Shown here: positions 38,515 to 46,527 of the stretch, piece by piece
Layout of the letters: every line of letters begins with the position of its first letter
How positions within the stretch are numbered: position 1 is the first letter of the stretch
Assembly (NCBI RefSeq): GCF_003130585.1
Contig: NZ_QFKX01000004.1
Span: 1-64,000 of the forward strand
Reading direction: 5' to 3'
Source of the DNA: Brachybacterium endophyticum
GTDB taxonomy: Bacteria; Actinomycetota; Actinomycetes; Actinomycetales; Dermabacteraceae
DNA: 64,000 nt
Made by a program: the position numbers and the translations under genes
The notes under the pieces: generated by a model
The model's input: only the letters and a program-made list of their open reading frames with translations
Database searches by the model: none
Told to the model about the DNA's origin: nothing

Positions 38515-39321
38515 TCAGTCCTCGCCCTCGCGTCGGCGCAGGAATCGCTCGAACTCCTTGGCGATCGCATCGCCCGACGCCTCGGGGAGGTCCTCGGCGT
38601 CCTGCGCCTCCTCGAGACGTGCGACGTACTCGGAGATGTCGGGATCGTTGCGCGAGAGCTCCTCGACGCCCCGCTCCCAGGCCTCCGCGTCCTCTTCGAG
38701 CTCGCGCACCGGGATCGGCGCGCTGACGTGGTCCTGCAGCGCGCGCACCAGAGCCAGGACGGCCTTGGGGGAGGCGTTCTGCGAGACGTAGTGGGGGACC
38801 TGCACCCAGATGCTGGAGGTGCGCACGCCCAGGGAGACGGCGGCGCGGGCGAGGACCGTCGGGATCCCGATCGGCCCTTCGTAGGTCTCGGGGTCGGCCG
38901 ATTCCGCTCGGCCGGGTTCGACCTGGTCGCTGATCGGCAGCGGGCGCGTGTGCGGGGCGTCGCCGAGCAGGGCGCCCAGGGAGATCAGGCGTGAGGCGTC
39001 GGCCCCGAGCAGCCGGTCCAGGACCTGCCGGCAGAACGCGTTCCAGCGCAGGGACGGCTCCGCGCCGTGGACGAGCAGCAGCTCGGGGCCCTGGGGCGGG
39101 GTCACCAGGTCGATGCGGGTGTCGGGCCAGTCGATGACCTTGCGACCGTCGGCGTCCAGCCGGGTCTCGGGTCGGTGCACCTGGAAGTCGACGAACTCCT
39201 CGGCCGGGATCCGCGCGATGGTGTGCGAGGGCCACGCCTCCAGCAGCAGCTCGAGGGCTCCCGTCGCCGCCTCGCCGGCGTCGTTCCAGCCGCTGAATGC
39301 ACAGATGGCGATGCGGGTCAT
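38515..39321 (-). CDS. PAC2 family protein
   Basis: A 268-residue cytosolic protein with the PAC2 (proteasome assembly chaperone 2-like) fold: CAFSGWNDAGEAATGALELL at the N-terminus, DWPDTRIDLV, LLLVHGAEPSLRW and TSSIWVQVPHYVSQNASPKA. The family is constant beside mshC in Actinobacteria. Despite the name, no role in proteasome assembly is shown for the bacterial members, and this genome segment lacks proteasome genes. The ATG lies six bases after TAGACT. Confidence 0.88.
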   Translation of the reverse strand: MTRIAICAFSGWNDAGEAATGALELLLEAWPSHTIARIPAEEFVDFQVHRPETRLDADGRKVIDWPDTRIDLVTPPQGPELLLVHGAEPSLRWNAFCRQVLDRLLGADASRLISLGALLGDAPHTRPLPISDQVEPGRAESADPETYEGPIGIPTVLARAAVSLGVRTSSIWVQVPHYVSQNASPKAVLALVRALQDHVSAPIPVRELEEDAEAWERGVEELSRNDPDISEYVARLEEAQDAEDLPEASGDAIAKEFERFLRRREGED

Positions 39322-40503: not shown

Positions 40504-41598
40504 ATGACCCCAGTTGCCGATGAGACTCCCCTTCCTGACACCGGTCAGGAGTCCGCGATCCCGGCGGCGCAGGTGCCCGCCCCGCCCGCCGCGCGACCGG
40601 GACTCGACCGCACGGGCCCCTTCGTGCTCGGGGACAAGGTGCAGCTCGCCGACGTCAAGAACCGGCTGCACACCATCACCCTCCGTGAGGGCGGCGAGTT
40701 CCACACCCATCGGGGGGTCCTGCGGCACACGGACCTGATCGGTGCCCGGGACGGCGTCGTCGTCCACGACTCCCACGGCAACGCGTTCCAGGCGCTGCGT
40801 CCGCTGTACTCCGACTACATGCTCTCGATGCCCCGCGGTGCCGCGATCATCTACCCCAAGGACTCCGCCCAGATCCTCATGTGGGGCGACATCTTCCCGG
40901 GCGCCCGCGTGCTCGAGGCCGGCGTCGGCTCGGGAGGTCTGACCACCGCCCTGCTGCGGGCCGTCGGCGAGCACGGCAGCGTGCACTCGATCGAACGCCG
41001 CGAGGAGTTCGCCGAGGTCGCCCGCGAGAACGTCGACACCTTCTTCGGCGGCACGCCGGAGACCTGGACCCTGAGCGTCGGTGACTTCCAGGAGGTCGCC
41101 GCGAGCATGGCCGACGAGGGCGAGAGCGCCGACCGCGTGGTCCTGGACATGCTCGCCCCCTGGGAGTGCGTGGACGCCGCGGCCGGCGTGCTCGTCTCCG
41201 GGGGCGTCTACCTCGCCTACGTCGCGACCGTCACCCAGCTCTCCCGAACCGCGGAGGCCCTGCGCGACCACGGGGAGTTCACCGAGCCCTCCGCATGGGA
41301 ATCCTTCGTGCGTCCCTGGCACCTCGAGGGGCTCGCCGTGCGGCCCGAGCACCGGATGAACGCCCACACGGGCTTCCTCCTGACCGCCCGCCGCACCGCC
41401 CACGGCACCCAGGCCCTGCGTCGCACCCGCCGACCGGCACCGGGCTCCCAGGACGAGGCCGAGCTGAACCATCCGGACAACGAGGGTTTCGGCGGCTCCA
41501 CGGGCGAGTGGAGCAGCCAGGACATCGGGGAGCGCGGTGTCGCCCCCCGCAAGATCAAGCGAGCCCTGCGCGACATCCGCCAGGGCCGGGACCGGTGA
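40504..41598 (+). CDS. trmI: tRNA (adenine-58-N1)-methyltransferase
   Basis: Makes m1A58 in the T loop of tRNAs, which stabilises them. The 364 residues contain a TrmI-type N-terminal beta domain ([19 protein letters not shown]), the SAM-binding motif [32 protein letters not shown] and [10 protein letters not shown] (motif IV). A C-terminal tail of about 70 residues is basic and Ser/Gly-rich. TrmI directly upstream of arc is an arrangement shared with mycobacteria. Confidence 0.93.
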
Positions 41599-41600
41599 GA

Positions 41601-43178
41601 ATGAAGACCTACCAGGAGATGACCGAGGAGCTCGATCGCTACGTCGCGCAGAACGACCGACTGGTCGCCAGCCTGCGGTCGGCCCGCGCCCAGATCGTCG
41701 ATCTCAAGAACGACCTCGAGCGGGTCGGCGACCCACCGAACTCCTATGCGACCTTCCTGCGCCGCACCGAGGGCACCACGGTGGACGTGCTGCACAACGG
41801 TCGACGCCTCCGCGTGGCCACGAGCGCCGAGATCGACCTCGAGGCCCTGCGACCGGGTGCCGAGCTGCGCCTGAACGAGGGGCTCGCCGTCGTGGACGTC
41901 GTCCCCACCCAGGAGACGGGCAGCGTGATCGTCGTCGAGGAGTCCCTCGAGGACGGCCGCGTGCTCGTCCAGGTGGGCCCGGACGACCTGCGCGCCTTCC
42001 GCCGCTCCGGCGCGGTCGAGGAGGTCTCGCTGGACGCCGGGGACCACGTGCTCGCCGATCTGCGCGCCCAGCTCGTCCTCGAGCGCATCGACCGGGCCGA
42101 GATCACCGACCTCGTGCTCGAGCAGGTCCCCGACACCTCCTTCGCCCGGATCGGCGGGCTGGGGGAGCAGATCGAGGCGATCCGCGACGCCGTCGAGCTG
42201 CCCTTCCTGCAGCAGGACCTCTATCGCGAGTACGGGCTGCGCCCGCCCAAGGGCGTGCTGCTGTACGGCCCTCCCGGCTGCGGCAAGACGATGATCGCCA
42301 AGGCCGTCGCCCACGAGCTCGCGGTGCGCTCGGCGGAGGCCAGGGGAGTGAGCGTCGAGCAGGCGCTCCAGCGCTCCTTCTTCCTCAACGTCAAGGGCCC
42401 CGAGCTGCTCAACAAGTACGTGGGGGAGACCGAGCGGTCGATCCGCCTGGTCTTCGAGCGCGCCCGGGAGGCGGCCGAGTCGGGTCATCCCGTCGTCGTC
42501 TTCTTCGACGAGATGGAGTCGCTGTTCCGCACCCGCGGCACGGGCCTCTCGAGCGACGTGGAGACCACCATCGTCCCGCAGCTGCTCGCGGAGATCGACG
42601 GCGTCGAGTCCCTCGAGAACGTGATCGTGATCGGCGCCTCCAACCGTGAGGACATGATCGATCCGGCGATCCTGCGCCCGGGCCGACTGGACGTGAAGAT
42701 CCGGATCCGCCGGCCCGACGCGGCCGCGGCCCGCGAGATCCTCGCGCTCTACCTCGACCGGAGCGTCCCTGTCCGCGAGGACCACGAGGCTCTTCTCGAT
42801 GTCGCCGTCGACCGGATCTATGCGGAGGGCGAGGACACCGCCTTCGTGCGGCTGGAGTACTCCGACGGCAGCTCCGAGACCCTCCACTTCCGTGACTTCG
42901 TCTCCGGGGCGACGCTGCGCAACATCGCCGATCGTGCGAAGAAGTACGCGGTCAAGGATTACCTGAACACGGGGACCAGCGGCATCGGCCGTGAGCATCT
43001 CGAGCAGGCGGTGGCCCAGGAGTTCACCGAGAACGAGGACCTGCCCTCGGGGGCGCATCCCGACGACTGGGCCCGGATCTCGGGCCGGCGCGGACGCCGT
43101 GTGGAGCACGTGGTGCCGCTGCGCGCCGGCGGCATCCTCGCCGCACAGGACGAGCAGGAGGGAGCCCGGGATGTCTGA
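41601..43178 (+). CDS. arc: AAA+ unfoldase ARC (Mpa), without proteasome-docking tail
   Basis: Hexameric ATPase that recognises pupylated proteins through its coiled coil and unfolds them. The 525 residues start with the coiled coil (about 5-45, [20 protein letters not shown]), followed by tandem OB folds (about 60-190) and the AAA module. That module has Walker A GPPGCGKT at about residue 223, Walker [12 protein letters not shown] and [17 protein letters not shown]. The C-terminus is DEQEGARDV. The Gly-Gln-Tyr-Leu end that docks mycobacterial Mpa to the 20S proteasome is absent. A GTG six bases upstream (overlapping the trmI stop) is an alternative start. Its stop overlaps dop. Confidence 0.95.
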
Positions 43179-44916
43179 CCAGGCCCCCGACGCCCGCCGC
43201 GGACTGGTGACCGAGCGCGTGATGGGCATCGAGACCGAGTTCGGGATCCTGGACGCCGCGCTCGATGCGCGCACCGGAGAGGCCAGCAGCTCGATCGCGC
43301 TCTCTCACCTGGTGGTCGGCGCCTACGGGCTCCTGCACCCCGCCGAGGGCACCCGCGGCCGGCGCGTGCGCTGGGACTACGGGGACGAGTCGCCGCTGCG
43401 CGACGCCCGCGGCTTCGAGATCCGCCGGGCCGCCGCCCATCCCACGCAGCTCACCGATCAGGTGCACGACGCGCACCTGCCCAGCATCGACATGGACATG
43501 CCGCTGCAGGCGCCCGAGATCGCCCCCGAGGGCAGCGACGCCGAGGTGCTCGCCTGGGCCGCGCGACGCTCGATCGGGAACACCGTGCTGAGCAACGGCG
43601 CGCGCCTCTACGTCGACCACGCCCACCCCGAGTACTCCTCACCCGAGGTGACGAGCGCCCGCGAGGCCGTCCTGCAGGACCGGGCGGGCGAGGTGGTGGC
43701 CCAGCGCGCGATGGAGCTCCTCGCCGCCGCCGACGGCGTCCCCGAGGTCGCCCTGTACAAGAACAACACCGACGGCAAGGGCGCCTCCTACGGCACCCAC
43801 GAGAACTACCTGCTCGCGCGCGACGTGCCCTTCGAACGGGTCGTCCAGGCGCTGCTGCCCTTCTTCGCCACCCGGCAGATCCTGGTCGGCGCCGGCCGCG
43901 TGGGGCTGGGCACCCGTGGCACCGAGCCCGGGTTCCAGATCTCCTCGCGGGCCGACTTCTTCGAGGAGAAGGTGGGGCTGGAGACCACCCTGGACCGCCC
44001 GATCGTCAACACCCGCGACGAGCCCCACGCCGACGCCGAGCGCCACCGCCGTCTCCACGTCATCATCGGCGACGCGAACCTGCTGGAGACCTCGACGTTC
44101 CTGAAGATGGGCATGACCTCGCTCGTCCTCGCCGCGCTCGAGGCCGAGCAGGAGAGCGGGGCGCGGATCCTCCCCGTGCTCGAGCTCGCCGACCCCGTGC
44201 AGGCCCTGCGGGACATCAGCCACGACCCCACACTGACGCGGACGGTCCCGCTCGCGGACGGACGCGAGCTCACGGCCCTGCAGATCCAGCGCGCCCATCT
44301 CGAAGCGGTGAGCGCGCACGCCGATCGGACCGATCCGGAGACCGCCGAGGTGCTGGACCTGTGGTCGGAGCTGCTCCAGGCCCTGGAGACCGAGCCGGCA
44401 CGCGCGGCCGACCGCATCGAGTGGGTCGCCAAGCACCAGCTCCTCGAGAGCTACCGCGCTCGCGCGGGCCTGGACTGGGGCGATGCCCGGCTGCGGGCGA
44501 TCGACCTCCAGTTCGGCGACCTCCGCCCCCAGCGCAGCCTGTTCACGAAGCTCCGCAGTGCCGGCCGCGTCGCCACCCTGGTGAGCGACCAGGAGGTGGA
44601 GGAGGCCGTGGGCACGCCGCCGGCGAGCACCCGCGCCTACCTGCGCGGCCGCCTGGTCCGTCACCATCGGGGTGAGGTCGCCTCCACCGGCTGGGACGTG
44701 ATCACACTGGCCGCCGAGGACGGCTCGACCACCCGGGTGCGCCTGGCCGATCCCCGCATCGGCTCCCGCCCCTGGTGCGAGGCACTGGGCCTCGACCCCG
44801 AGGCCGCCCTGCCCGATGTGCTCGAGGCCCTTGCCCGCGCCGCGGCGGACACGGCCACCGTCCCCGGCCCCGACGCCGACGCCGGCAGCGCCGTCGGCAC
44901 CGACCCGTCCCACTGA
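43171..44916 (+). CDS. dop: Pup deamidase/depupylase
   Basis: Glutamine-synthetase-fold enzyme that deamidates the C-terminal Gln of Pup to Glu and also removes Pup from targets. GIETEFGIL carries the metal glutamates. The Dop-specific loop follows the first strand, then [15 protein letters not shown] with the catalytic aspartate region, [20 protein letters not shown] and [19 protein letters not shown]. At 581 residues it is longer than mycobacterial Dop (about 500), with an Ala/Asp-rich C-terminal tail. Its ATG overlaps the arc stop. Confidence 0.95.
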
Positions 44917-44939
44917 TCCCACGACCCCGAGGAGACACC

Positions 44940-45128
44940 ATGTCCCAGCAGAGCCTGCACGGTTCCGGCCCGTCGGACGACGAGAACAGCAGCGAGGAGA
45001 CCGCCGCCGGTGGTCAGGTCTTCGCCTCCGCACAGGGCGCCGACGACCTCCTGGACGAGATCGACTCCGTCCTGGAGTCGAACTCCGAAGAGTTCGTGCG
45101 CTCCTTCGTCCAGAAGGGCGGTCAGTGA
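44940..45128 (+). CDS. pup: Prokaryotic ubiquitin-like protein Pup
   Basis: The 62-residue protein tag. It is disordered and acidic at the N-terminus (PSDDENSSEE). The ARC-binding helix region is ADDLLDEIDSVLESNSEEFV and the end is FVQKGGQ. The terminal GGQ means Dop must convert Gln to Glu before PafA can ligate it to lysines. A GAGGAG site precedes the ATG, 23 bases after dop. The PafA start is only four bases beyond the stop, so no prcB or prcA lies between. Confidence 0.97.
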   Translation: MSQQSLHGSGPSDDENSSEETAAGGQVFASAQGADDLLDEIDSVLESNSEEFVRSFVQKGGQ

Positions 45129-45132
45129 TCTG

Positions 45133-46527
45133 ATGGAGCGCCGCATCGGCGGACTGGAGACCGAGTTCGGACTCGTGTGCGTGCGCGGGGACGGCACCCG
45201 CGCCCTCGAGCCCGAGGCAGCCGCGCGGGAGCTGTTCAAGCCGGTCGTGGCCAAGGGCCGTTCCTCGAACGTGTTCCTGCGCAATGCCGCCCGGCTGTAC
45301 CTCGACGTCGGCTCCCACCCGGAGTACGCGACGGCCGAGTGCGACGACTGGTGGGAGCTGGTCGCCCAGGACCGTGCCGGCGAGCGTCTGCTGGCCGAAC
45401 TGATGGCCCAGGCCAACGCGCGCTTCGCCGAGCGCGGGGAGGACGCCCGCATCCACCTGCTCAAGAACAACGTGGACCACGAGGGCAATGCCTTCGGCAG
45501 CCACGAGAACTACCTCGTGGACCGACGCGGGGAGTTCACCCGGCTGCCGCGGATCCTGCTGCCCTTCCTGGTCACCCGCCAGATCGTCACCGGTGCGGGC
45601 GGCGTCGTGACCGAGGCCGACGGCACCTCCCGCTTCGTCTTCTCCCGCCGCAGCGACCACATGTTCGAGGCGGTCTCCTCGGCGACGACGCGCACACGCC
45701 CCCTGATCAACACCCGGGACGAGCCGCACGGCGATCCGAACCGCTTCCGGCGTCTGCACGTCATCGTGGGCGACTCGACGATGTCGGAGGTCTCCACCTG
45801 GCTGCGGTTCGCGACCACCGACCTGGTGCTGCGCCTGATCGAGTCCGGTCGAGCCGCCGACGTCCCCGAGCTCGAGGACACCATCAGCTCTATCCGCGCC
45901 GTCTCTCGCGACCTCAGCGGGATCGAGCCGCTGCCCCTGGAAGGTGGGCGGACCGCGAGCGCGCTCCAGGTCCAGCAGCGCTACCTCGACCTCGTCGCGC
46001 CGCTCGCGCGCCCCGAGGAGCACGAGGTCCTCGAGACCTGGCAGCGGGCCCTGGACGCGGTGCTCACCGGGGATCGCAGCTGGGCCTCGCGCACTCTGGA
46101 CTGGGCGATCAAGGAGAAGATGGTCGGGCAGGTCGCGCAGCGGCACGCCCTCGACCTCGGTGACCCGCGCATCGAACGCCTCGACCTCGCCTACCACGAC
46201 ATCGATCCCGCCCAGGGCCTGCACGCCTCGCTGCAGCGTCGGGGCCTGGCGCCGCGCGTCCTCGCGGACGCCGACGTCGAGGCCGCGAGGACCACGGCGC
46301 CCACGAGCACCCGCGCGCACCTGCGGGGGCGCTTCATCGCCGCCGCGGAGGACGCCGGGGTCGACCACGTGGCGGACTGGACCACGATGCGGCTCGTGCG
46401 CCAGGGCGCCATGCCCGTCAGTGTCATGGACCCCTTCGCGACCACGTCGTCCCAGGTCGACGCCCTGATCGAGAGGGTCCGCGCCGAAGGCGGGGGACAG
46501 GGCACGAACGCCGCACATCCCGCCTGA
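45133..46527 (+). CDS. pafA: Pup ligase
   Basis: Forms the isopeptide bond between the C-terminal glutamate of deamidated Pup and substrate lysines, using ATP. It is a 464-residue homologue of Dop without the Dop loop: MERRIGGLETEFGLVCV (metal glutamates) leads into AARELFKPVV. LLKNNVDHEGNAFGSHENYL and NTRDEPHGDPNRFRRLHVI are shared with Dop, and the C-terminal domain has SVMDPFAT. The ATG at 45133 fits the family N-terminus exactly. It follows pup by four bases, so translation is likely coupled. Confidence 0.96.
   Translation: MERRIGGLETEFGLVCVRGDGTRALEPEAAARELFKPVVAKGRSSNVFLRNAARLYLDVGSHPEYATAECDDWWELVAQDRAGERLLAELMAQANARFAERGEDARIHLLKNNVDHEGNAFGSHENYLVDRRGEFTRLPRILLPFLVTRQIVTGAGGVVTEADGTSRFVFSRRSDHMFEAVSSATTRTRPLINTRDEPHGDPNRFRRLHVIVGDSTMSEVSTWLRFATTDLVLRLIESGRAADVPELEDTISSIRAVSRDLSGIEPLPLEGGRTASALQVQQRYLDLVAPLARPEEHEVLETWQRALDAVLTGDRSWASRTLDWAIKEKMVGQVAQRHALDLGDPRIERLDLAYHDIDPAQGLHASLQRRGLAPRVLADADVEAARTTAPTSTRAHLRGRFIAAAEDAGVDHVADWTTMRLVRQGAMPVSVMDPFATTSSQVDALIERVRAEGGGQGTNAAHPA

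Follow-up and report, generated by a model that had tools for sequence, protein, structure and literature searches.

Pupylation genes without a 20S proteasome in Brachybacterium, and a graded series of relatives in the Dermabacteraceae

What can Pup tagging serve in a bacterium whose pup and pafA genes have no proteasome genes between them? The question is raised by four genes, arc, dop, pup and pafA, at positions 41601-46527 of a 64,000-nucleotide stretch of the Brachybacterium endophyticum genome (contig NZ_QFKX01000004.1, positions 1 to 64,000; hereafter the window). In proteasome-bearing relatives the spacer between pup and pafA holds prcB and prcA, and it measures 1431-1659 nucleotides in the five such members of the family Dermabacteraceae. 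We think it likely that Brachybacterium carries a full pupylation module, maintained by selection, without a 20S proteasome, that its ATPase, ARC, would act as a free unfoldase, and that the docking tail of ARC and the activator Bpa were lost before prcBA. This answer builds on what can be read in the sequence itself: the gene content, the lack of 20S genes, of the ARC tail and of a Bpa match, the constraint on the four genes and their placement in a tree. All four genes lie on the forward strand, each open from start to stop, and the features of the locus are as follows.

41601-43178, forward strand: arc, an AAA ATPase (Mpa/ARC) of 525 residues; TIGR03689, 697 bits (cut-off 505)
43104-43175, forward strand: C-terminal tail of ARC, its last 24 residues, without GQYL or a penultimate tyrosine
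43171-44916, forward strand: dop, Pup deamidase/depupylase of 581 residues; TIGR03688, 609 bits (cut-off 492)
44940-45128, forward strand: pup, 62 residues, C-terminus GGQ; PF05639, and TIGR03687 with 72 bits (cut-off 41)
45129-45132, forward strand: four-base gap from the pup stop to the pafA ATG
45133-46527, forward strand: pafA, Pup ligase of 464 residues with its ATG at 45133; TIGR03686, 578 bits (cut-off 551)
40504-41598, forward strand: trmI-like tRNA methyltransferase (PF14801, PF08704), an upstream neighbour outside the pathway

Each of the four proteins scores above the curated cut-off of its own NCBIfam equivalog, and dop overlaps arc by 8 nucleotides. In the alignment, ARC keeps K229, D303/E304, Y273/G275 and R362; we take K229 to belong to Walker A, D303/E304 to Walker B and Y273/G275 to the pore loop. 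Dop retains D149 within YVDHAHPEY and PafA retains D58 within YLDVGSHPEY, columns that presumably serve catalysis and metal binding. Pup ends in GGQ, so its deamidation by Dop is needed. The first-pass annotation had described four complete and intact genes, with the catalytic motifs and the GGQ end of Pup present and with four bases between pup and pafA; the open frames, equivalog scores and kept columns bear this out, and the distance is exact.

The same annotation held that 20S genes are missing from the locus. Genome-wide, the profile PF00227, which takes in HslV as well as the two 20S subunits, found no match in the window's own genome (17 contigs totalling 3.55 Mb, 99.89% complete; G000, where labels in G, L, C and f denote genomes, loci, contigs and families), so that neither prcA nor prcB turned up elsewhere, the finding that the annotation had named as its refutation. 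The genus gave the same result, with matches in none of 38 genomes, 33 of which reach 90% completeness or more with contamination of no more than 5%. Across the family, 5 of 47 genomes matched and the other 42 are without 20S; Pup was present in 37/38 genomes of the genus and 46/47 of the family, the single miss being G026, which is 88% complete. Among 14 named control genomes, Corynebacterium glutamicum gave no PF00227 match and was the only one matched by Pup, as expected. That 20S genes exist in a missing part of the assembly is scarcely credible: the genome does lie in 17 contigs, but it is almost complete, pup and pafA are contiguous, and nine of the 38 genus genomes without a match are listed as one contig.

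A second profile (A1), built from the PrcB of the five 20S-bearing relatives in the family, likewise matched none of the 38 genus genomes at E<=0.001, and nothing in G000 at E<=1. At E<=1 it matched nine of the 38 (best E 0.047), and there is no evidence of a prcB remnant among these weak matches. In G003, G013, G022, G025 and G035 they run over the 3' end of pup in a different frame that contains a stop, an artefact that arises because the relatives' PrcB frames were taken from stop to stop, their first residues overlapping pup. The remaining four cover 54-71 model positions inside longer frames of 256-808 residues.

Substitution patterns indicate that the four-gene module is maintained under purifying selection. 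Among close pairs of G010, G012 and G034, with synonymous divergence (dS) of 0.07-0.25, the ratio of nonsynonymous to synonymous divergence (dN/dS) was 0.09-0.10 for arc, 0.11-0.14 for dop, 0.07-0.19 for pup and 0.13-0.16 for pafA, next to 0.07-0.11 for the neighbouring trmI. Comparison of the window with G010 gave 0.13-0.28 (trmI 0.18), and that of G005 with G016 gave 0.08-0.37 (trmI 0.25), pup being highest in both. The catalytic, ATPase, pore and metal columns of the proteasome-less Dermabacteraceae, including the window, are kept in 36/36 members for ARC and Dop and in 35/36 for PafA (one gap), and the ARC pore aromatic is tyrosine in 34 and phenylalanine in 2. Strict motif patterns were missing in genomes of both classes; these patterns were too narrow, and the alignment columns show the residues kept. 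Complete loss of pupylation does happen, as 30 of the 297 genomes in our even sample of the order have no Pup match (among the 20 listed, 15 belong to family f19), and the module could be a relic heading the same way after the loss of prcBA. We regard this as very improbable in view of the low dN/dS in close pairs, the intact catalytic columns and the presence of Pup in all but one genome of the family. In three Brachybacterium loci, L014 (7001-9014), L015 (7001-9078) and L085 (G027), the PafA match is spread over about 2 kb or is without the first motif; a frameshift, insertion or faulty assembly may lie behind this.

Mpa/ARC docks onto the 20S ring through a C-terminal GQYL (PMC8223512). The window ARC ends in EGARDV, and a search for GQYL followed by a stop found none in G000. 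ARC ends were compared over 171 fetched loci of 12 kb, 40 from the family and 131 from the order sample, which represent one or a few genomes per genus together with 20S-bearing genomes without Bpa; 33 unreadable ends (11 without 20S, 22 with 20S) were excluded from the counts. Six of the 46 Pup-positive genomes of the family fall outside these loci, the window's own locus having been read directly, as do G248, from a set of 50 searched genomes, and, from the 40 genomes with 20S and without Bpa, G112, G190 and G203. Genomes without 20S contributed 84 loci, 73 of them readable, and 72 of these 73 ARC proteins have no penultimate tyrosine; 35 of the 84 loci come from the window's own family and so are not independent. 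Genomes with 20S contributed 87 loci, of which 65 were readable: 48 end in GQYL and 3 in another xxYx (51/65 with a penultimate tyrosine), and 14 are tail-less. The tail-less ones comprise four members of the window's family (G038, G039, G041, G042), eight of family f7 (all that were read) and two of family f20, in which ARC was readable in only 2 of the 12 fetched 20S-bearing loci. Within the genus, ARC tails differ between species and share no conserved motif at the end. Two single ends deserve mention: L189 (G271) has no 20S match yet its ARC ends in GTYL, perhaps after a recent loss of prcBA, and the ARC tail of L081 (G022), arginine- and proline-rich, differs from those of its neighbours as if a late frameshift had occurred.

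Bpa (PF10759) has no match in G000; no named control genome matches either, but 126 of the 297 genomes of the order sample do, and all 126 have 20S. A single genome of the family, G044, carries it (1/47). In the order sample, 40 of the 166 20S-bearing genomes have no Bpa match, 32 of them listed at 90% completeness or more, and this disagrees with the published occurrence of Bpa in every proteasome-bearing actinobacterium except Propionibacterium acnes (PMC4254994, PMC8223512). Some of these cases may be explained by genome incompleteness and by diverged copies. When the GQYL-stop search was run on 17 genomes, it returned just ARC and Bpa in G044, the positive control, and none was found in G038, G039 and G041, the GQYL pattern being the only tail tested. 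Two matches in G042 and one in G179 close frames of 10-33 residues and seem due to chance; the G205 and G043 matches are followed by TGG, not a stop. The archaeal Cdc48 model TIGR01243, a weak test for the activator Cpa, gave six matches in G000 (an FtsH-like frame, ARC and weaker AAA frames), with no evident two-ring Cpa, and the same weak test gave no evident Cpa in G038, G039, G041 and G042.

Within the Dermabacteraceae these parts come in a graded series. At one end stands G044, with 20S, Bpa and an ARC that carries the GQYL tail; next come G038, G039, G041 and G042 (L051, L052, L054, L055), in which 20S genes lie between pup and pafA but ARC is tail-less and Bpa has no match; the others have no 20S. 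A search of the open-access literature, which left subscription papers outside, turned up neither a tail-less ARC next to 20S genes nor the family's graded series. A tree of the ARC core, Dop and PafA was built by a quick search from 61 rows with the tails removed; it includes 18 of the 31 Brachybacterium loci that were fetched, and G134 was excluded for a clash of its Dop and PafA assignments. In this tree every row of the Dermabacteraceae other than G044 falls into one clade (27 rows, support 100) to which G044 is sister, and all members of that clade are tail-less. Inside it, 20S is present in G042 and in the trio G038/G039/G041 and absent from G040, G043, G045/G046 and Brachybacterium; nearest to the trio are G040 and then G043 (support 100).

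Such a placement suggests that ARC was probably uncoupled first and prcBA lost afterwards, the direction of the changes being our interpretation of the tree. On the stem of most Dermabacteraceae the ARC docking tail and the Bpa gene would have been lost, freeing pupylation from degradation. The prcBA genes would then have become dispensable and, if never regained, would have disappeared from Brachybacterium and from the G040, G043 and G045/G046 lineages; without regain, a single loss of the tail and Bpa was followed by four losses of prcBA. We prefer loss over regain because the five 20S-bearing genomes of the family all have prcBA at the same place, flanked by pup and pafA.

In these five genomes the 20S frames are open and the N-terminal threonine, D17, R19, K33, the GSG turn and a later aspartate are kept, columns whose catalytic roles we assume. 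The pocket lysine K52 of the alpha subunit is retained in 4/4 tail-less family genomes with 20S. In the trio G038/G039/G041 the 20S genes show dN/dS of 0.05-0.12 against 0.03 for arc, two to four times the arc value, although these values are rough, dS being above 1 and saturated; the genes look constrained, less than arc. A tree of PrcB and PrcA, from which family f20 was excluded, joins G042 to the trio (support 100); it is compatible both with fast evolution following uncoupling and with a different origin, and does not decide between them.

Family f7 also has a tail-less ARC, in 13/13 genomes read (the eight above and five further; L110, L121, L125, L129, L143, L144, L156, L172 and L248-L252). 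Six of the 13 tails end in (S/P)DL(L/V), and given these ends there may be a different kind of ARC-20S contact in f7. Bpa ends in GNYL in 12/12 f7 genomes read (L233-L244), so that the penultimate tyrosine is kept in Bpa, not in ARC; G205, G280 and G316 have no Bpa match. The f7 alpha subunit keeps K52 in 8/8, and the 20S of this family seems to be served by Bpa only. On balance we lean towards an uncoupling of Pup tagging before the proteasome was lost, with the f7 20S mostly served by Bpa and with a 20S that outlives docking in G038, G039, G041 and G042, where it might work with an unknown activator that uses the alpha-pocket lysine, through a new docking mode of ARC, or as one of two separate systems.

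The biochemistry of the Brachybacterium module, and with it a non-degradative fate of tagged proteins, we infer as follows. Dop would turn Pup-GGQ into Pup-GGE, which PafA would couple to substrate lysines, and Dop could remove Pup again. The tail-less ARC, with its ATPase and pore residues kept, would pull on pupylated proteins, unfold or disassemble them and release them, a course already proposed for ferritin in C. glutamicum. The first-pass annotation had likewise proposed that tagging here is not degradative. That part is supported, as there is no 20S, and the missing ARC tail and the absence of a Bpa match fit such a role; remodelling or marking, as opposed to delivery to another protease, is what we infer beyond it.

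Several observations weigh against this reading. Presence of the 20S does not by itself predict the tail, as 14 of the 65 readable 20S-bearing genomes are tail-less. On independent pairs the link between tail and 20S falls short of significance (median p 0.06): of nine pairs, from a tree of 112 of the 135 usable rows plus the window, an average of 5.4 go the same way, 0 the opposite way and 3.6 show no difference. An undirected count makes one prcBA loss with two regains (3 steps) shorter than four losses. The tree itself was built quickly from the locus's own genes and does not settle the fork between G042, G045/G046 and the rest, and the PrcBA tree puts G044 among other families on very long branches (3.73, 1.31), so that vertical descent is not proved. 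Higher dN/dS values for pup in the window-G010 (0.28) and G005-G016 (0.37) pairs also weigh against the reading. Finally, Pup attachment is here a prediction from the genes, and ARC could hand its substrates to another protease.

In that last case pupylation would still be degradative, ARC feeding unfolded substrates to Clp, FtsH or another chambered or membrane protease. The pore residues of ARC are kept, and further AAA frames are matched by the Cdc48 model in this genome, for instance one of 695 residues at C10:935930 that we judge FtsH-like by size and score. The ARC end, however, holds no conserved motif and varies between species of the genus, and the portions of the literature consulted report no such hand-over; we therefore hold this alternative to be unlikely, and favour release by a free ARC.

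Corynebacteria and other actinobacteria are published cases of pupylation without a proteasome (PMC3511204, PMC8223512, PMC12288473), so the parallel with corynebacteria drawn in the annotation is correct and in print. A subset of actinobacteria is described as lacking 20S subunits, likely by secondary loss (PMC8223512). C. glutamicum and the window have in common the arc-dop-pup-pafA set with pup directly before pafA, no prcBA, an ATPase without the docking motif and no Bpa. In C. glutamicum, pupylated bacterioferritin is disassembled by ARC (PMC12288473), and a ferritin substrate and an iron phenotype are known; the window's genome has two ferritin-family matches, at most candidate substrates. 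A role in iron release, by analogy with C. glutamicum, is possible. The close relative G010 has no ferritin-family match, so ferritin is unlikely to be the sole substrate in the genus. As a separate observation, the 20S-bearing G038, G039 and G041 have no ferritin-family match, against 40/42 of the 20S-less family genomes with one.

Micrococcus luteus, Kocuria and Bifidobacterium, each of which we take to be without 20S, resemble the window in having lost it with pupylation kept, in separate lineages. Figure legends in PMC8223512 and PMC4254994 mention them. The mycobacterial Pup-proteasome system uses the same four pupylation genes but differs in having prcBA between pup and pafA, an Mpa ending in GQYL and Bpa (PMC8223512); the window shows neither prcB-prcA at that place nor GQYL on its ATPase, the marks of the canonical system. 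Propionibacterium acnes has 20S without ARC and Bpa (PMC4254994), and, like G038, G039, G041 and G042, indicates that 20S genes can outlive known activators; there ARC itself is gone, whereas the Dermabacteraceae kept ARC and pupylation and lost only the docking tail. One paper mentions Brachybacterium faecium, solely in a genome list.

Besides the trmI-like gene, an M50 peptidase gene and, on the opposite strand, a PAC2-family gene lie upstream of the locus, and an FKBP gene lies downstream. Named relatives of PafA come from Brachybacterium at 15/15 loci. The PAC2 family includes eukaryotic proteasome-assembly chaperones; its member here (window 38515-39321, reverse strand) is retained near the locus despite the absence of a proteasome. 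In the order sample, G187 and G213 each have two Pup matches at separate places.

Pup without 20S is frequent in the order: with PF00227 in 166/297 genomes and Pup in 267/297, at least 101 have Pup and no 20S. Proteasome-free pupylation is already known as a kind, and has been reviewed; the window adds one genus to it, and what is new is Brachybacterium and the likely order of events. The family matters more, for its close relatives comprise coupled systems, uncoupled systems with 20S and systems without 20S. Comparison of sister species along this graded series would allow the role of Pup as something other than a death tag to be tested, and whether its release from degradation preceded the loss of the proteasome.

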